Positions 1 to 8,003 of a stretch of DNA of 19,160 nucleotides are shown piece by piece. The notes beneath the pieces were generated by a model. It had not been told where the DNA came from. It was given only the letters and a program-made list of their open reading frames with translations, and searched no databases. The translations under genes and the position numbers were made by a program. Origin of the DNA: Pseudomonadota bacterium (GTDB taxonomy: Bacteria > Desulfobacterota > Syntrophobacteria > Syntrophobacterales > Syntrophobacteraceae); NCBI GenBank assembly GCA_023416335.1, contig JAEZHY010000255.1:1-19160 (forward strand). Direction: 5' to 3'. Numbering within the stretch: position 1 is the first letter of the stretch; the number at the start of each line of letters is the position of its first letter.

Positions 1-585
1 CCGGACGTTTACATGGGCCCGGTAATTTCGAAGGAAGCAAAGGAAAAGATCGAACGCTATATCGATATCGGGATCAAGGAAGGTGCCAAGCTGATCCTTG
101 ACGGCCGCAATCCGCAAGTCCCCGATAAGAACAAGAACGGCTACTTCGTAGGTCCCACGGTTTTTGTCGATGTGGAGCCGACCATGAGGATCGCGAAGGA
201 AGAGATCTTCGGGCCGGTGGTTTCCCTTGTCCGTGTTGACGATATGTACCAGGCACTTGCGCAGATCCGGAACCAGGAATTCGGCAATGGCGCCTGCATT
301 TTTACACAGAACCTCTATTACACGGAGAAGTTCATCCAGGAAGCCAATGTCGGCATGGTGGGAGTAAACGTCGGTGTTTGCGCTCCTCATCCCTATCTGC
401 CGTTCGGGGGCATCAAGGATTCGCTGCTCGGTACGGATAAGGTCCAGGGCAAGGGCGGGATCGATTTCTTTACTCAGGGCAAAGTCGCGACCATACGCTT
501 CGAGGCCCCGGAGGGGAAAGGCGAACCCCAGGGCGTCGAAAGGTGTCCGAATACGGGCGCTGTTCGAAGCTGCGTGGCGCAATAA
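1..585 (+). CDS. Aldehyde dehydrogenase, MmsA (methylmalonate-semialdehyde dehydrogenase) family, C-terminal part
   Basis: The reading frame is open from base 1, so the gene starts upstream and only about the last 194 residues are seen. The block KEEIFGPVVSLVRV is the conserved aldehyde-dehydrogenase segment that follows the catalytic region. The end, with GMVGVNVGV, a PFGGIKDS-like turn and GIDFFTQGKVATIRF, matches the C terminus of CoA-acylating methylmalonate-semialdehyde dehydrogenases rather than classical NAD aldehyde dehydrogenases. The catalytic cysteine and the nucleotide-binding residues lie outside the window. Family members oxidise a semialdehyde to an acyl-CoA or acid in the cytoplasm. 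The gene ends 61 bases before an ABC importer on the same strand, so it probably processes something derived from the imported compound. The exact substrate (malonate semialdehyde, methylmalonate semialdehyde, sulfoacetaldehyde or other) cannot be read from this fragment. Confidence 0.85.
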   Translation, partial: PDVYMGPVISKEAKEKIERYIDIGIKEGAKLILDGRNPQVPDKNKNGYFVGPTVFVDVEPTMRIAKEEIFGPVVSLVRVDDMYQALAQIRNQEFGNGACIFTQNLYYTEKFIQEANVGMVGVNVGVCAPHPYLPFGGIKDSLLGTDKVQGKGGIDFFTQGKVATIRFEAPEGKGEPQGVERCPNTGAVRSCVAQ

Positions 586-646: not shown

Positions 647-1456
647 ATGGGCAATGGTGTGGCTGGTGCCGGCAGTTTGAAGACGACGGAGACATCGACC
701 GAAGCGGGCAATGGGGACAACGGAATGAAGATCCGGGTTGAGAACCTGACCAAATGCTTCGGTGATTTGACGGTCCTCGATGACATCTCGTTTAACGTCG
801 CCCGCGGCGAATTCCTGAGCATAGTGGGTCCAACCGGGTGCGGGAAAACCACCTTCCTGAACTGCCTGTCGAAACTTTTGCCCACGACGAAGGGGAACAT
901 CCTCATCGACGGAGAGGAAGCCAACCCGAAGAAGCACAATGTCTCGTTTGTCTTCCAGGAGCCTACATGCATGCCGTGGAGGACGGTGAAGGAGAATGTG
1001 GCTTACGGGATGGAGGTAAAGAAGTTCCCGAAGGACAAGTTGGAGTCGAGACTCAAATACATTCTGGACCTGGTAGGTCTGTCTGATACGGCAAACCTCT
1101 ATCCAAACCAGGTTTCGGCCAGTATGGAGCAGCGAATCGCAGTCGCGCGGGCTTTTGCGGTGGACCCTGATTTGCTGCTGATGGATGAGCCTTACGGCCA
1201 ACTGGACGTGAAACTCCGTTATTACCTGGAAGACGAACTGGTCCGTCTGTGGCAGACATTGAACTCGACCGTCGTATTCGTAACGCACAACATTGAAGAG
1301 GCAGTCTATGTTGCTGAGAGGATTCTCATTCTGAGCAACAAACCCACCAAGATCAAGGCGGAGATACGAGTTGACCTGCCCCGTCCGAGGAGCCTGATAG
1401 ATCCGAAATTCGTGGAAATCAGAAAGCAGGTCACCGAATTGATCAGGTGGTGGTAG
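647..1456 (+). CDS. ABC importer ATPase 1 (TauB/SsuB-like), with degenerate signature motif
   Basis: This is a cytoplasmic ATP-binding subunit of a nitrate/sulfonate/taurine-type importer, 269 residues. Walker A is GPTGCGKTT at residues 61-69, the Q-loop glutamine is Q104, Walker B ends in D180-E181, the D-loop is GQLD, and the H-loop histidine is H214 (codon 1286-1288). The signature motif, normally LSGGQ or LSGGM, is VSASM here (VSASMEQ at residues 156-162, bases 1112-1132), so both glycines are gone. Residues 1-26 are a Gly/Ala/Thr-rich extension before the family's usual start; the in-frame ATG at 725 (MKIRVENL), preceded by GGGGAC, is an equally good start. It is the first importer gene after the dehydrogenase and lies 125 bases before the binding-protein gene. 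The family call is firm; the substrate is unknown. Confidence 0.9.
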   Translation: MGNGVAGAGSLKTTETSTEAGNGDNGMKIRVENLTKCFGDLTVLDDISFNVARGEFLSIVGPTGCGKTTFLNCLSKLLPTTKGNILIDGEEANPKKHNVSFVFQEPTCMPWRTVKENVAYGMEVKKFPKDKLESRLKYILDLVGLSDTANLYPNQVSASMEQRIAVARAFAVDPDLLLMDEPYGQLDVKLRYYLEDELVRLWQTLNSTVVFVTHNIEEAVYVAERILILSNKPTKIKAEIRVDLPRPRSLIDPKFVEIRKQVTELIRWW

Positions 1457-1581
1457 CGCTAAGAATTCTAAGGATTCCCCCGGAGAGGAAATCGGAGAGG
1501 AGGTGGGACTGACAGCCGGCAGGTTTTCATAAACTGGTGCTCAAGTTGAATGTTTGCGGGACTCAAATTTAAGGAGCTGAA

Positions 1582-2646
1582 ATGAAGAAGCTGGTTTTGG
1601 CGGGGATATTGGTTCTTGGTGCTATGTTTCTGTTGTCGGGTCTAGGACCTGCAATGGCGGCCGACAAAGTGATCAAGTTGAATACGTGCTGGATGCCCGA
1701 GCACGAGACCTTCATCCCCTGGCTCGCCAAGGAAAAGGGATGGGATAAAGAAGAAGGTCTCGAACTCAATCTGCTCTATTTTGAATCGGGTATGGCTCAG
1801 CTCGAAGCGCTTCCCGCGAAGCAGTGGGTCCTCGGCGGTACGGGTGGAACGCCGATGGTTATGGGAGCTGCACGTTACGGCGCTCAAATGATCGGTATCG
1901 GCAATGACGAGTCGCTGACAAACGTCGTTATGGTTCGCCCCGACAGCCCGATGCTCAAAACGAAGGGTTTCAATCCGAAGAACCCCGAAGTTTTCGGCAG
2001 CCCCGAGCTGATCAAGGGCAAGACGATTCTCGTAACGACGGTATCTTCCGCTCACTTCGCCCTGAGCAACTGGCTCAAAGTTTTCGGTCTTAAGGACAGC
2101 GACGTAGTCATCAAGAATATGGACCAGGCCCAGGCCGTGGCGGCTTTCGAGTCCGGCATCGGCGACGCGGTTGTTCTGTGGGCCCCCCACATGTACTCGG
2201 GTCTGAAAAAGGGCTGGAAGATCGCCGGCAACGTATCCACAAGCGGTGCCGGTCTTCCGATCGTGCTGATCGGCGACAAGGATTTCTGCGAGAAGAATCC
2301 TGAGACGGTTGCCAAGTTCCTCAAAGTTTTCTTCAAGGGTATAGATTATCTGAAGAGCACGCCGGTCGACCAGGTTGTTCCGCAGTACCAGAAGTTCATG
2401 AAAGACTGGTGCGGTCTGGATATGACCCCCGAGATGTGCAAGCAGGACATAGAAATGCATCCGGTTTTCACGCTCGCCGAACAGGTGAAGATGTTTAACG
2501 ACAACGTTCCCGAGAAGTGGGAACTTGGGGTTCTGAGCTTCTTTACCGAGCAGGGAAGACTCAAGAAGGAAGATGCCGACAAGGTCCTGAAGGACGGCAA
2601 GCTCAACTTCATTACCGACAAGTACATCAAGATGATCGCGAAGTAA
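1582..2646 (+). CDS. Periplasmic substrate-binding protein, NMT1/TauA/SsuA-like
   Basis: The 354-residue product starts with a clear signal peptide: a KK n-region, a hydrophobic core at residues 5-22, and a cleavage site after AMA at residues 24-26. The mature part has the two-lobe pattern of the NMT1/TauA group: an early segment ending in a Trp-Met-Pro-Glu substrate-pocket stretch, GGTGGTP near residue 86, and later an exclusion-type segment where the sequence recurs to the first lobe. AAGGAG at 1571-1576 sits six bases before the ATG, so the start is well supported. Its job is to deliver a small solute to the two permeases encoded just downstream. Related proteins bind taurine, alkanesulfonates, nitrate, cyanate or thiamine precursors. 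Nothing visible here decides among these, although the neighbouring dehydrogenase points to an organic compound. Confidence 0.9.
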   Translation: MKKLVLAGILVLGAMFLLSGLGPAMAADKVIKLNTCWMPEHETFIPWLAKEKGWDKEEGLELNLLYFESGMAQLEALPAKQWVLGGTGGTPMVMGAARYGAQMIGIGNDESLTNVVMVRPDSPMLKTKGFNPKNPEVFGSPELIKGKTILVTTVSSAHFALSNWLKVFGLKDSDVVIKNMDQAQAVAAFESGIGDAVVLWAPHMYSGLKKGWKIAGNVSTSGAGLPIVLIGDKDFCEKNPETVAKFLKVFFKGIDYLKSTPVDQVVPQYQKFMKDWCGLDMTPEMCKQDIEMHPVFTLAEQVKMFNDNVPEKWELGVLSFFTEQGRLKKEDADKVLKDGKLNFITDKYIKMIAK

Positions 2647-2751
2647 GTCCACGGTAATAACGCTCGACCCAAGTCAACGCTACACAGGGGGCCGGGTCTG
2701 ACCCGGTCCCCGACCCGATCCAGTAATATCAGCCAGATAGTGGGGATAAGT

Positions 2752-3546
2752 ATGGCTTACGAACAGGTCAAAGTTGAGACACCGCTGGTTCTGCGAATCC
2801 TGCCTGTAGCCAGCATCGTTTTGTTCTTTGCGGTGTGGCAGGCAATTGTGGAACTCGAGATTGTTCCAAACACGATGCTGGCTTCGCCTACCCAGGTTGC
2901 GGTCCTGTTCTGGGAGAAGCTGTTTGAAGCGAATCCCGACGGTGCCGTTCTGTCGACTCATGCCTGGGTGAGCATCCAGGAAGCTTTTACCGGATTCTTT
3001 CTCAGCCTTGCGGTGGGTATCCCCCTTGGGTTACTGATGGGTTGGTTCACGGTTGCGGAAGGTCTGGCCAGGCCGATTTTCGAACTCATCAGGCCTATTC
3101 CGCCGGTTGCATGGATCCCCCTGACGATATTCTGGTTCGGAATCGGGATTCCCGGGAAAGTCTTCATCATTTGGCTTTCGGGAATTGTCCCATGCGTTAT
3201 CAATTCATATGTGGGCGTCCGGATGACGAATCCCACCTTGATCCAGATGGCCAGGACCTACGGGGCGACCGATTGGGAGATTTTCAAGAAAATCTGCATT
3301 CCATCGGCACTGCCAATGGTTTTCGGCGCAATGACCATATCTCAGGCGTATTGCTGGACCACTCTTGTCGGCGCGGAATACCTCGCAGCCGACCAGGGGC
3401 TCGGCTATCTCATTACAATGGGACGTCGGCTTGCCAGTCCGCCGATGGTTGTACTCGGAATGATCTGTGTCGGTCTAACCGGTGTTGCCATCGGGATAGT
3501 AATTGAAAAAGTTGAAAAACGGCTCCTCGCCGGGATCAGGAGATAG
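2752..3546 (+). CDS. ABC importer permease 1 (SsuC/TauC-like)
   Basis: This inner-membrane subunit has 264 residues from the ATG at 2752. A GTG 12 bases earlier is in frame but has no ribosome site, whereas GGGGA at 2742-2746 fits the ATG with a five-base gap. The first membrane helix is near residues 13-33, followed by several more. The stretch RPIPPVAWIPL near 114-124, then an FWFG turn, is characteristic of the SsuC/TauC group. The EAA loop that contacts the ATPase is at about residues 166-188, with the conserved glycine at G171. Its stop is only five bases before the second permease gene, suggesting translational coupling. With permease 2 it probably forms a heterodimeric channel. Confidence 0.92.
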   Translation: MAYEQVKVETPLVLRILPVASIVLFFAVWQAIVELEIVPNTMLASPTQVAVLFWEKLFEANPDGAVLSTHAWVSIQEAFTGFFLSLAVGIPLGLLMGWFTVAEGLARPIFELIRPIPPVAWIPLTIFWFGIGIPGKVFIIWLSGIVPCVINSYVGVRMTNPTLIQMARTYGATDWEIFKKICIPSALPMVFGAMTISQAYCWTTLVGAEYLAADQGLGYLITMGRRLASPPMVVLGMICVGLTGVAIGIVIEKVEKRLLAGIRR

Positions 3547-3551
3547 CTGAA

Positions 3552-4403
3552 ATGACTGTCGGAACCTCCAGCATTGCCAATGAAATTCAACTGGAAGTCA
3601 AGGAAAGGCGACCTTTTTCCATTATCGCACTTATTAAAAACCGCTGGTTCCTCTATGTGGTTTCGCTTGTCGCTTTCTTTGGAATCTGGAAGTACGTAGA
3701 CTACACCAAGATCCTCGGCAACGGCATAGCCGCACCGGACGCGGTGGTCGTGCAGATCTATATGCTCCTGACGGATACGATTGCCGGCAAATCCCTGTGG
3801 GGACACATCTGGGCCAGTACCTACCGGGTCCTTATCGGATTTTCCATCGCATCCGTTATTGCTGTTCCTCTTGGAATTCTGATGGCGCTCAACAGATACA
3901 TCAACGCGATCGTAAAACCGGTTTTCGACCTTCTTAAGCCCATGCCGCCCTTTGCCTGGATATCCTGTGCCATTCTCTGGTTCGGCATCGATGAGCCCTC
4001 GAAAATATTCATCATCGTCGTCGGAACTTTTGTGCCCTGCCTTTTGAATTCCTACATGGGCATTCGGCTGATAGAACCGCAACTTTACGACGTCATCCGG
4101 ATGCTTGGAGGAAACCGCCGGGATGAAATCCTTCAGGTCGGCTTTCCCGCTGCATTTCCCGCCATCTTCGCCGGGTTGCAGATTTCCGTGAGCATTGCGT
4201 GGACATGCGTGCTTTCGGCCGAACTGGTCAGTGCGCGGTCCGGGCTCGGCTTCATCATTATCCAGGGAATGCAGTTGTCCAGGCCGGCGCTTGTTCTTGC
4301 TGGCATGGTCGTTCTTGCTTTCGTTGCCTGGGGAACGACTCTGCTCGTGACCGGGCTGGAGAAAGTCCTTTGCCCCTGGAAACGTGAAGCGGTCCAGATG
4401 TAG
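3552..4403 (+). CDS. ABC importer permease 2 (SsuC/TauC-like)
   Basis: The second inner-membrane subunit has 283 residues. AGGAG at about 3538-3542, inside the end of permease 1, supports the ATG at 3552. A charged cytoplasmic N-terminal segment of about 30 residues precedes the first helix near residues 32-48. The family stretch LLKPMPPFAWISC appears near 127-139, followed by ILWFG. The EAA loop lies near 180-203 with the conserved glycine at G186, but its sequence differs a good deal from that of permease 1. Two non-identical permeases and two non-identical ATPases in one operon suggest a fully heteromeric transporter rather than the usual homodimers of this family. Confidence 0.92.
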   Translation: MTVGTSSIANEIQLEVKERRPFSIIALIKNRWFLYVVSLVAFFGIWKYVDYTKILGNGIAAPDAVVVQIYMLLTDTIAGKSLWGHIWASTYRVLIGFSIASVIAVPLGILMALNRYINAIVKPVFDLLKPMPPFAWISCAILWFGIDEPSKIFIIVVGTFVPCLLNSYMGIRLIEPQLYDVIRMLGGNRRDEILQVGFPAAFPAIFAGLQISVSIAWTCVLSAELVSARSGLGFIIIQGMQLSRPALVLAGMVVLAFVAWGTTLLVTGLEKVLCPWKREAVQM

Positions 4404-4450
4404 CGGACACCGGCTTTTGGATACCGAAATTTCATAAGAGGAACATCGCA

Positions 4451-5221
4451 GTGGATACGAACAACGGGTATAAGATCGTCTGCAACAACATAAGCAAGAC
4501 CTTCATCCAGAAAGGGACGCAACGGGTTCACGTCCTCGAGGACGTAAGCGTGAGCGTCCGAAAGAACGAATTTCTCGTCATACTGGGGCCGGGGCAGTCC
4601 GGGAAAAGCACTCTCCTCAGAATCATCGCCGGGCTGGAAGTTCCGACGAAAGGGGACGTATACCTCGACGGAGCGGAAGTCAGCGGACCCGGCGCGGACC
4701 GCGGACTCGTCTTCCAAAGCTACATGCTCTTTCCGTGGAAAACCGTCCTGGGCAACGTGGAACTCGGTCCGAAACTGCGCGGAGTTCCTAAAGCTGAAAG
4801 GCGGGATATCGCAAGGCACTACATCGAGCTGGTCGGGCTGAAAGGTTTTGAAAACCACTATCCACATCAGCTCAGCGGCGGCATGAAACAACGTGTCGGC
4901 ATAGCGAGAGCTTATTCTAACAGTCCCGAAGTAATGCTGCTCGATGAGCCTTTCGGACAACTCGATGCGCAAACGCGGTATTTCATGGAAAAGGAGACCG
5001 CACGCATCTGGGAAACGGAAAAGAGAACCGTTCTCTTTGTGACGAACAATATAGAAGAGGCTATTTTTCTCGGAGACCGAATCATTTCTCTCAAAGGAAA
5101 GCTTCCGGGGCGCATGCATGAAACTTATGAGGTCAATTTGCCGCGTCCCCGCGAACATACTGAAATGGAGTTTCTCCGGTTAAGGCACGAAATTACGGAA
5201 GCTTCCGAACTGACTTTGTAA
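4451..5221 (+). CDS. ABC importer ATPase 2 (TauB/SsuB-like), H-loop histidine replaced by asparagine
   Basis: This is the second ATP-binding subunit of the importer, 256 residues from a GTG start preceded by AAGAGGAA. Walker A is GPGQSGKST at residues 46-54, the Q-loop glutamine is Q89, the signature motif LSGGMKQ at 141-147 is canonical, and Walker B ends in D165-E166. The H-loop, which should read FVTHN, reads FVTNN: residue 199 is Asn (AAC at 5045-5047), where ATPase 1 has CAC. That histidine normally contacts the ATP gamma phosphate and is needed for hydrolysis in most ABC proteins. The defect complements the degenerate signature of ATPase 1. The gene lies 47 bases after permease 2 and is the last gene of the transporter run. 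Confidence 0.92.
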   Translation: MDTNNGYKIVCNNISKTFIQKGTQRVHVLEDVSVSVRKNEFLVILGPGQSGKSTLLRIIAGLEVPTKGDVYLDGAEVSGPGADRGLVFQSYMLFPWKTVLGNVELGPKLRGVPKAERRDIARHYIELVGLKGFENHYPHQLSGGMKQRVGIARAYSNSPEVMLLDEPFGQLDAQTRYFMEKETARIWETEKRTVLFVTNNIEEAIFLGDRIISLKGKLPGRMHETYEVNLPRPREHTEMEFLRLRHEITEASELTL

Positions 5222-5516: not shown

Positions 5517-6269
5517 ATGATCAATGTTAAGTCATTACGTGAGCAGGTGTACGAGTTTCTCAGGCAGGAACTGAGCAGCGGAAATCTTCTTCCGGGTATG
5601 CCCATCAATCTGAACGAGATCAGCCACCGGCTCAGAATCAGCAAGACTCCTTTGCGGGATGCAATACTTCAGTTGGAGCAGGAGGGATTCGTAACAATTG
5701 CCCCCCGGAGCGGTGTTTTTGTAAACGAACTTACTCTCGATGCAATACGTCACTGCTACGAAATGGCAGGCGGCCTCGAGATGTCCGTGCTGTTGTATAA
5801 TCTCGAAAAGATCGATGAAAATAGAATCGCCAAAATGAAGTGGCTCAATTCGGGATTGATGAGTGTCGTCGAGCGTAAGGATTTCGACACGCTCTATGAT
5901 ATGAACCTGGCTTTTCATAACGTTTTTCTGGATCTGTCCGACAACATCAAGCTGCACAGAATCCTGGATGCCGCGAAGCAGCGGCTCTACGATTTCCCGA
6001 GGCGCGGCTATATCGTTGATTGGGAGCTGGCGAACTGCAAGGAGCATGAACTGCTGATCGATGCGATCGAGAAGCGCGATCGGGCTCAACTGCAGGCTGT
6101 ATGGCTGGAAAAGCACTGGAGTTTCAGCTACCAGGAGGAATTTATCCGCCAGTTCTATTTCCCTGAAGGACAGGAGGTTTGCTCGCCGGCAGCCGACCAG
6201 ATGACTGCTAATGGGCTCAGAGAGCGGAAAAAGCCCAGAAGAAGAATTGCAAGATCGATTCTGCTGTAA
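5517..6269 (+). CDS. GntR-family transcriptional regulator, FadR/FCD subfamily
   Basis: The 250-residue protein has an N-terminal winged helix at about residues 5-70. The recognition region around ISHRLRISKTPLRDAI and the wing with APRSGVFVNEL are typical of GntR proteins. The rest is the all-helical FCD ligand domain; likely metal or ligand contacts are D128/N130, H134, H177 and H200. A basic tail of about 30 residues (RKKPRRR) extends beyond the domain. Proteins of this group usually repress or activate adjacent catabolic genes in response to an organic acid. The position directly after the importer, on the same strand, suggests it controls the dehydrogenase/importer operon, but no operator has been demonstrated. 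The ribosome site before ATG 5517 is weak. Confidence 0.9.
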   Translation: MINVKSLREQVYEFLRQELSSGNLLPGMPINLNEISHRLRISKTPLRDAILQLEQEGFVTIAPRSGVFVNELTLDAIRHCYEMAGGLEMSVLLYNLEKIDENRIAKMKWLNSGLMSVVERKDFDTLYDMNLAFHNVFLDLSDNIKLHRILDAAKQRLYDFPRRGYIVDWELANCKEHELLIDAIEKRDRAQLQAVWLEKHWSFSYQEEFIRQFYFPEGQEVCSPAADQMTANGLRERKKPRRRIARSILL

Positions 6270-6983: not shown

Positions 6984-8003
6984 CTACCTTGCCTTAAATG
7001 AAATTCGGTATTTGAATGCATCAGGTGCGTACCAGTCGATTGTTTTGCCTCCGACTTGCGCGAAAGGATATCCGAAATTGTTAAGCGGCTCTCCCGCCCG
7101 GGGCGGGTTCAACTCGATATCGCGGCCGGTCGAGAGTTTAATTCGATACTGGTCTATTCCGCCCCAGAAGTACTCCCTGTAACCTGAAAGTTTGGGATCA
7201 TTCGGTCCTATATTTTCAACAAGCCTTGCTTTCAGAACATCGGCGGGGTCGACGGGCACCCAGCCGTAGCCTGGGACCAGGAACTCGGCCCAACAGTGCT
7301 GATAGCCGGTGATATCCTCTTCCGCTATTCTGCCGAGCCTGATCCCGAATACTTCCCTTGCCGGCACATTCGCAGCGCGGCACAAAGCTATAAAAACCGA
7401 TGAAATATCGGTGCATTTGCCTTTCGGATCCGCCAGTAGCGCGCAAACGTTCCCCTGTCCGCACCCGCGCACATTCGGATCACGCGCCATGTTGTCGCAG
7501 ATCCAGTCGTAAATTGCCCTGGCTTTCGCGGCTGAGGATGTTTTCCCTTGTGTTATCCTGTCCACCAGTTTTTTCACTTCGCCATCAATTGGCCCGCGGC
7601 TCGTCGGGACGAGATAGGGGCTGTAATCGGAGGCATCCCAACGGCCCTCTTTTGCCGGAATGTCTTTTCTGGCGACTTCCAGCCTTTCTGCCGTGAATGA
7701 GAGCACCATTTTCCTGTCTCCAGTTTTGGCGTCCCAATATGCATAAAGGATAGGATTGCCATTAATTCGGTCGGTATAGACGGCCGAGGAAGTGAAAGTT
7801 CCGGAGACTTTTATGTCGCTTATGAGCTGATCGGAATCAGAGACGGGGTAAGGCACCCAGAGCTTTGCTTCCTGCCCTGTTCCGTGGGCGGAAAGGTCAA
7901 AGCTCATAGAAACCGTACCCGAGCAACCTGCGGGCCAGGTGGGAACAGGCAATAAAACAGACCAGATCAGCATGACCAAAACGGAGAAAAAAATTCTTTT
8001 CAT
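6984..8003 (-). CDS. Secreted transglutaminase-like (papain-fold) protein
   Basis: The 339-residue product begins with a signal peptide (MKR, then a hydrophobic stretch at residues 4-19, ending around WPA at 23-25). GGAGA five bases before the ATG supports the start. The middle holds a transglutaminase-core domain with all three catalytic positions: C197 in GKCTDISSVF, H236 in YQHCWAEF, and D252 in VPVDPAD. A beta-rich segment at about residues 30-130 precedes it. Such bacterial proteins act in the periplasm or outside as proteases, amidases or cross-linking enzymes; the substrate here is unknown. Seven cysteines in the mature part (including C181, C187, C197, C208 and C237) leave room for disulfides or metal binding. 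The gene is transcribed alone, against the direction of its neighbours, so there is no operon to suggest a role. Confidence 0.85.
   Translation of the reverse strand: MKRIFFSVLVMLIWSVLLPVPTWPAGCSGTVSMSFDLSAHGTGQEAKLWVPYPVSDSDQLISDIKVSGTFTSSAVYTDRINGNPILYAYWDAKTGDRKMVLSFTAERLEVARKDIPAKEGRWDASDYSPYLVPTSRGPIDGEVKKLVDRITQGKTSSAAKARAIYDWICDNMARDPNVRGCGQGNVCALLADPKGKCTDISSVFIALCRAANVPAREVFGIRLGRIAEEDITGYQHCWAEFLVPGYGWVPVDPADVLKARLVENIGPNDPKLSGYREYFWGGIDQYRIKLSTGRDIELNPPRAGEPLNNFGYPFAQVGGKTIDWYAPDAFKYRISFKAR

Follow-up and report, generated by a model that had tools for sequence, protein, structure and literature searches.

Two complementary ATPases probably give a NitT/TauT-like importer one consensus and one degenerate ATP site

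Why would an importer carry two different ATPases, each of which lacks a part of the usual ATP site that the other retains? An operon in a 19,160-nucleotide stretch of DNA from a Syntrophobacteraceae bacterium (contig JAEZHY010000255.1, the whole of which stretch we call the window) raises this question. The operon lies on the forward strand and encodes two ATP-binding cassette (ABC) ATPases, one substrate-binding protein and two permeases, with the binding protein and the permeases between the ATPases. Our answer is that it very probably encodes a heteromeric type I (NitT/TauT-like) ABC importer, in which ATPase 1 (A1) and ATPase 2 (A2) would form a heterodimer with one consensus and one degenerate ATP site.

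A1 (P0001, 647..1456) has 269 residues, with a start that is possibly the internal Met27, and A2 (P0002, 4451..5221) has 256 residues and a GTG start. Both are ABC ATPases by PF00005 (1.2e-29 and 2e-29; 104.1 and 103.4 bits compared with a gathering cut-off of 25). Profile matches identified the NMT1/SsuA-like binding protein (1582..2646) and two BPD_transp_1 permeases, A (2740..3546) and B (3552..4403), which differ from each other in a similarity comparison. This combination in one operon of an NMT1/SsuA-like binding protein, a BPD_transp_1 permease and an ABC ATPase is that of a NitT/TauT-type importer. It is not TauABC or SsuABC proper, as every listed NCBIfam Tau and Ssu model scored below its own cut-off with the window proteins.

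Read in order, the motifs of A1 are GPTGCGKTT, FVFQEP, VSASM, LLLMDEPYGQLD and FVTHN, and those of A2 are GPGQSGKST, LVFQSY, LSGGM, VMLLDEPFGQLD and FVTNN. A1 has a consensus Walker A (827..853), a Walker B reading LLLMDEPY (1172..1195) and the H-loop His214 (CAC, 1286..1288), but its signature is VSASM instead of LSGGM (residues 156-160, 1112..1126), with both glycines gone. A2 has the consensus signature LSGGM (residues 141-145, 4871..4885) and a Walker B reading VMLLDEPF (4931..4954), but Asn199 (AAC, 5045..5047) replaces the H-loop His. The catalytic Glu of Walker B (DEP) is retained in both proteins. An earlier note on this DNA had described the altered signature of A1 and the H-loop Asn of A2, and both were confirmed when we re-read the open reading frames and residues. 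A third change was absent from that note: the Walker A of A2 (4586..4612) is GxxQxGK instead of GxxGxGK, with Gln49 (CAG, 4595-4597) at the second glycine. As the Walker A of A2 is thus non-consensus, the case for complementary sites is strengthened.

Each ATP site of an ABC dimer is shared: one chain supplies Walker A, Walker B and the Q- and H-loops, and its partner supplies the signature (PMC7756269). Because the body of one chain is combined with the signature of the other, the A1 body and the A2 LSGGM are predicted to make a consensus site, and the A2 body (Q49, N199) and the A1 VSASM a site with all three changes. The earlier note had proposed that the defects of both ATPases fall in one shared site, and had suggested looking for their co-occurrence in orthologues. 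Its proposal is supported, since signature loss and H-loop change co-occurred in all 62 of the non-redundant A1/A2 gene pairs described below. Noncanonical catalytic motifs are conserved in orthologues within one composite site, with the sites assigned from known ABC architecture.

Close homologues were compared as the query plus the best 120 of 7964 matches for A1, and the query plus the best 120 of 7999 for A2. All 121 A1 rows had Ser at the second signature glycine and retained the H-loop His; the signature region read NQVSASMEQR in 98 rows and NQVSSSMEQR in 17. Individual A1 rows showed a broken Walker A (RTNGCGKTT), GPTGCGKPT or FVFHEP. LSGGM, the H-loop Asn and the Walker A Gln were each present in 121/121 A2 rows, and the Walker B Asp was replaced by Tyr in one row. 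Canonical domains of other importers, from the searches that gave the gene pairs described below, had SGG, His and Gly in 83/83. The presence of the pattern in every row of both sets and in every pair rules out a sequencing error or an isolated mutation.

We counted A1 and A2 genes as a pair when they lay within 7 kb of each other on one strand. Pairs came from a genome scan of at least 80 loci (L001-L023, the A1/A2 family; L024-L080, other importers), from searches of 20, 297, 398, 198 and 9 genomes (some shared) and from longer fetches; removal of contained duplicates reduced 81 raw pairs to 62. These are not independent, because many are close relatives, and 37 remained after thinning at 75% identity and removal of three short pairs (L005, L007 and L162). 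In the 62 pairs, A1 always lacked LSGG (60 had Ser in place of the second glycine and 2 had SAG) and always had the His, A2 always had SGG, with Asn (61) or Ser (1) at the H-loop, and DEP was present in both proteins throughout. The fourth Walker A position of A2 was Gln in 56 pairs, Gly in 2, Leu, Glu and His in one each, and missing in one. Two of the 62 pairs displayed a milder form of the complementary pattern. The genes were adjacent in the order A2-A1 in 43 pairs; A1 lay more than 2 kb upstream of A2, as in the window, in the other 19.

Outside the pair count stood 21 single ATPase rows (4 A1 and 17 A2). The 17 A2 rows correspond to 16 places (13 plus 1 refetched at longer range, and two in L001 and L002), of which 15 later entered the pair count; the remaining one, in genome G077 (L168), stops at the contig end before the expected A1. 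Three of the single A1 rows are near contig ends (L003, L109 and L110), and the fourth, L014, has a fragmentary A2 and the A1 signature LLASM. The numbers of A1 and A2 genes were equal in 26 of 27 genomes compared. In the exception, G002, there are two extra A1 genes, neither more than about 3.3 kb from a contig start. Genes similar to permeases A and B were found in the same operon at 19 of loci L001-L023. A borderline match (G006:C5) was checked and is canonical.

The family also departs from its canonical relatives mostly around the ATP site. Across 26 canonical rows, 67 columns were at least 80% conserved, and the A1/A2 family departs at 9 of them, 6 of which are in ATP-site motifs compared with 27 of the 67. 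The departures of A1 are two positions after Walker A, both signature glycines, the Tyr after DEP, the D-loop Gln and one position after the D-loop; those of A2 are the Walker A Gly, the H-loop and the same D-loop position, where A2 is mixed. Some are outside the degenerate site, as the Tyr after DEP and the D-loop Gln are carried by the A1 chain itself. In a quick tree of 37 of the 62 pairs, without the three short pairs and near relatives, and 26 of 28 diverse canonical rows, A1 formed one clade (Shimodaira-Hasegawa-like approximate likelihood ratio test, SH-aLRT, 98) and the 35 severe A2 another (99). Over 35 pairs, A1 and A2 distances correlated with r 0.75, a value reached by 0 of 2000 permutations, as would be expected for co-inherited genes.

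A sister branch, whose matches include the names Desulfomonile tiedjei and Syntrophobacteraceae, displays the same polarity in a milder form, with LSAGM, a normal Walker A and the H-to-N exchange. Its loci include L091 (2144-3724), L182 (3349-4874), L191 (5277-6836) and L192 (220-1797). In a set of four loci of this branch, the partner ATPase has ISAGM or LSAGM together with His at all four, and one permease-like gene, assigned by similarity, lies upstream at three; the fourth locus starts near a contig start. With a profile built from the sister branch itself, the best 120 of 6624 A2-type matches all had SGG and the H-loop Asn, with Gly (117) or Ser (3) at the fourth Walker A position. Genes near the sister-branch importers include corrinoid methyltransferase genes (L191 and L194) and a nitrilase gene (L182), which suggests that the ATPase asymmetry is not bound to one cargo.

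Judged by these motifs, the complementary pattern appears to be kept across three bacterial phyla. Genome samples, each centred on a locus from one phylum and called here by the phylum of that centre locus, were searched with the A2 profile, with scoring confined to a few top first-look candidates in each genome. The Desulfobacterota, Bacillota and Spirochaetota samples include genomes that contributed to the profile. The family was found around the Desulfobacteraceae, Faecalicatena and Spirochaetales centre loci. In the Desulfobacterota-centred sample, 12 of 297 genomes passed; one (G055) is canonical, which leaves 11 with the family, including one of the mild branch (G046). In the Bacillota-centred sample, 21 of 398 passed at E 1e-95; rows below 340 bits are canonical, and seven genomes carry the family with more than 380 bits (G011, G577, G671, G519, G620, G467 and G408). 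The Spirochaetota-centred sample gave 12 of 198. Samples centred on Herbaspirillum and Streptomyces loci gave 0 of 249 Pseudomonadota and 0 of 149 Actinomycetota genomes, an empty result that shows nothing by itself. One protein of this bacterial family (P0304) is in a record labelled Ephemera danica, a mayfly, where contamination is the probable source.

Based on these data, we propose a model for how the importer works. One binding protein and two permeases would assemble with an A1-A2 heterodimer in head-to-tail orientation. Walker A, Walker B and His214 of A1 would face the LSGGM of A2 to form a complete ATP site, and the Gln49 Walker A, Walker B and Asn199 of A2 would face the VSASM of A1 to form the degenerate site. 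ATP bound at both sites would close the dimer. Hydrolysis at a useful rate would occur only in the consensus site, and the degenerate site would hold ATP and serve as a clamp. If so, a single working ATP site probably powers the importer. Sequence gives good support to the complementary architecture, through the genes, their motifs and conservation, their pairing and the operon context; the heterodimer, its composite sites and one-site hydrolysis are what we infer from known ABC architecture. It is conceivable, though we are doubtful, that a whole type I importer lineage in anaerobes evolved to save energy by spending a single ATP on each cargo rather than two. The milder sister branch may preserve an earlier step along this route, even if its A2 seems to be a mosaic. 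Two proteins, P0003 (448 residues) and P0015 (468 residues), each have an A2-like half and an A1-like half in a single polypeptide, with the junction truncated. We set them aside as natural fusions bearing on the heterodimer, as the A2 end and/or the A1 start is missing and a deletion or an assembly artefact is therefore equally likely.

Could each ATPase instead act as a separate homodimer, perhaps with different permease pairs? Relatives usually have one ATPase gene: all 57 of loci L024-L080 have a single such ATPase (more than 150 bits) on the matched strand. However, an A1-A1 dimer would be without LSGG at either site and an A2-A2 dimer without the H-loop His at either, and the two genes stay close together with equal counts in nearly all genomes compared. 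We consider separate homodimers very improbable. A better case can be made that the altered motifs are tolerated variants and that both composite sites hydrolyse ATP, giving two active sites as in DppDF. The Walker A Lys and Walker B Glu of A2 are intact, an Asn at the H-loop of the second nucleotide-binding site (NBS2) of ABCC1 kept transport (PMC7756269), and either single Glu-to-Gln mutant of DppABCDF still has ATPase activity (PMC12136057). Yet tolerance alone fails to predict that the changes would gather in one site and leave the other consensus in every pair, and the canonical relatives keep SGG and His without exception. We therefore regard two active sites as unlikely. About equally unlikely, in our judgement, is a regulatory role, in which the degenerate site would sense ATP/ADP or a metabolite and so gate the importer rather than act as a passive clamp. 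The specific residues conserved there (the Walker A Gln, the H-loop Asn and the Ser at the second signature glycine) make selection on the degenerate site seem likely, but domain-profile scans found no sensor domain on A1 or A2.

Several observations weigh against a heterodimer with one working site. With the Lys and Glu of A2 intact, slow hydrolysis at the degenerate site is possible. The ABCC1 exchange at NBS2 to the equivalent Asn (and also to Gln) left wild-type-like transport (PMC7756269), so N199 by itself need not abolish activity. Our rule for the A2 class demanded a non-His residue at the H-loop and is thus partly circular, although no domain scoring above 337 bits to the A2 profile carries His there. 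The correlation of A1 and A2 distances partly reflects shared descent, not contact alone. Last, the tree placed the mild A2 beside A1 and away from the severe A2 (support 86), although a single A2 clade that includes the mild A2 was not rejected (approximately unbiased test, p 0.32). The mild A2 of L091 (2144-2959) and L120 (1492-2259) are mosaics, with an N-terminal half closer to A1 and a C-terminal half closer to A2. These different nearest relatives of the two halves suggest gene conversion between the paired ATPase genes, and they weaken the mild A2 as a clean intermediate.

What the importer carries is suggested by the genes near its relatives. The cargo is probably an organosulfur compound and, in the window's branch, most likely taurine or a close relative. 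The taurine route consists of an aminotransferase, sulfoacetaldehyde acetyltransferase (Xsc) and alanine dehydrogenase. Xsc (TIGR03457) was found at L176 and L179 in the Bacillota search (897.6 and 806.2 bits compared with a cut-off of 676.4), clustering placed a third Xsc at L175, and alanine dehydrogenase scored above its cut-off at L175 and L101; these four loci belong to the window's own 10-row clade, members of which also have a class III aminotransferase gene nearby. Among 47 family loci, the Xsc cluster is present at 3, the alanine dehydrogenase cluster at 2 and the class III aminotransferase cluster at 9 (7 of the 9 scanned), and the window has only a cut aldehyde dehydrogenase. This neighbour set resembles the taurine route. 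At L004, a sulfoacetaldehyde reductase-like protein scored 463 of 700 bits, below cut-off. Counting against taurine, the window's binding protein scores 61.6 bits compared with a taurine equivalog cut-off of 304.25, and it is for this reason that we argue from the relatives' neighbours.

A sulfatase cluster is present at 10 of the 47 loci and a second one at 3, all in Clostridia or Spirochaetes (one member of each scanned). The clustered sulfatases have no strongly hydrophobic N-terminus, and some have a sulfatase maturase (a cluster found at 4 loci) or TauE (a cluster found at 3) nearby. This context suggests import of intact organosulfur compounds. L011, L014-L018, L020, L021, L023 and L102-L104 could each be a candidate unit for sulfate-ester uptake and desulfation, with sulfatases and in some cases a maturase or TauE-family gene. 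Another subgroup (L007-L010, L105 and L108) has split transketolase genes and zinc-type dehydrogenases near the importer, with a LarA-like racemase in L007 and L008.

In the window itself, the aldehyde dehydrogenase upstream of A1 (1..585, forward strand; PF00171) is a C-terminal part cut by the window edge. Its best NCBIfam match is MMSDH-like and below cut-off, it is 59% identical to the aldehyde dehydrogenase upstream of A1 in L003, and it is a possible catabolic partner of the importer. A GntR-FCD regulator downstream of A2 (5517..6269, forward strand; profile matches), with a 55% relative in L004, is a candidate regulator of the operon. Farther downstream are a transglutaminase-like protein on the minus strand (6984-8003; PF01841) and, between 8665 and 15301, successive open reading frames that read by eye as an NtrC-type regulator, a histidine kinase, a sensor-like protein and a Kup-type potassium transporter. 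In a plasmid search, every match was below 60% identity.

The reason why some ABC transporters retain an ATP site that is dead or slow is debated, and has been studied mostly in exporters. This importer family offers the half-sites on separate small genes, in naturally severe and mild forms, and has canonical relatives to compare them with. Two small proteins can thus be mixed, swapped and mutated to test directly how much ATP is spent per imported molecule and what a degenerate site does. The ATPase pair may also mark likely taurine or organosulfate uptake systems in anaerobes.

How does this pair compare with known systems? The literature we searched held no description of ATPase asymmetry in NitT/TauT importers, and the NrtBCD/CmpABCD structure papers were likewise not retrieved. 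The asymmetry of this ATPase pair is real and conserved among the type I importers compared here, and is absent from that literature. The earlier note had set asymmetric exporters against importers with identical ATPases. The exporter half of that contrast stands: ABCB2/B3 (TAP), ABCC7 (CFTR), TM287/288, ABCG5/G8 and Pdr5 have one consensus and one degenerate site (PMC7756269). Their Walker B Glu is typically changed, whereas the window pair retains it; ABCG5/G8 is an exception and, like the window pair, joins signature and Walker A changes (PMC7756269). The importer half was too strong. RbsA and NupO are importers reported, from their sequences, to contain a degenerate ATP site (PMC11466899), so a degenerate site in an importer is not itself new, and NrtC/NrtD and CmpC/CmpD are distinct chains. 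RbsA and NupO are type II importers with fused ATPases and another permease class, and among their altered residues is the lysine of Walker A, with Walker B also defective in NupO (PMC11466899). In contrast, the window pair is encoded by separate genes, keeps the Lys and Glu, and is altered in a Walker A glycine, the H-loop and the signature. The DppABCDF importer also has two distinct ATPases, both of which are active (PMC12136057).

By NCBIfam, the best model for both A1 and A2 is SaoA (NF040729; 226.0 and 233.6 bits), below its cut-off of 360. The nitrate importer NrtBCD and the bicarbonate importer CmpBCD (PDB 8wm7 and 9u9z) are the top solved relatives of A2, and rank behind two sugar-transport ATPases for A1. 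They have two different ATPase chains, and the window has two distinct ATPase genes in one operon. Unlike the A1/A2 pair, CmpC, CmpD and NrtD carry SGG and His in alignments, and the NrtC and CmpC chains have 665-690 residues compared with 269 and 256 for A1 and A2. TauABC and SsuABC have one ATPase gene and one permease gene, each used as a homodimer. The window importer resembles them in its SsuA/NMT1-like binding protein, its TauC/SsuC-like permeases and its likely organosulfur cargo, and it differs from them in having two ATPases and two permeases and in scoring below the Tau and Ssu cut-offs.

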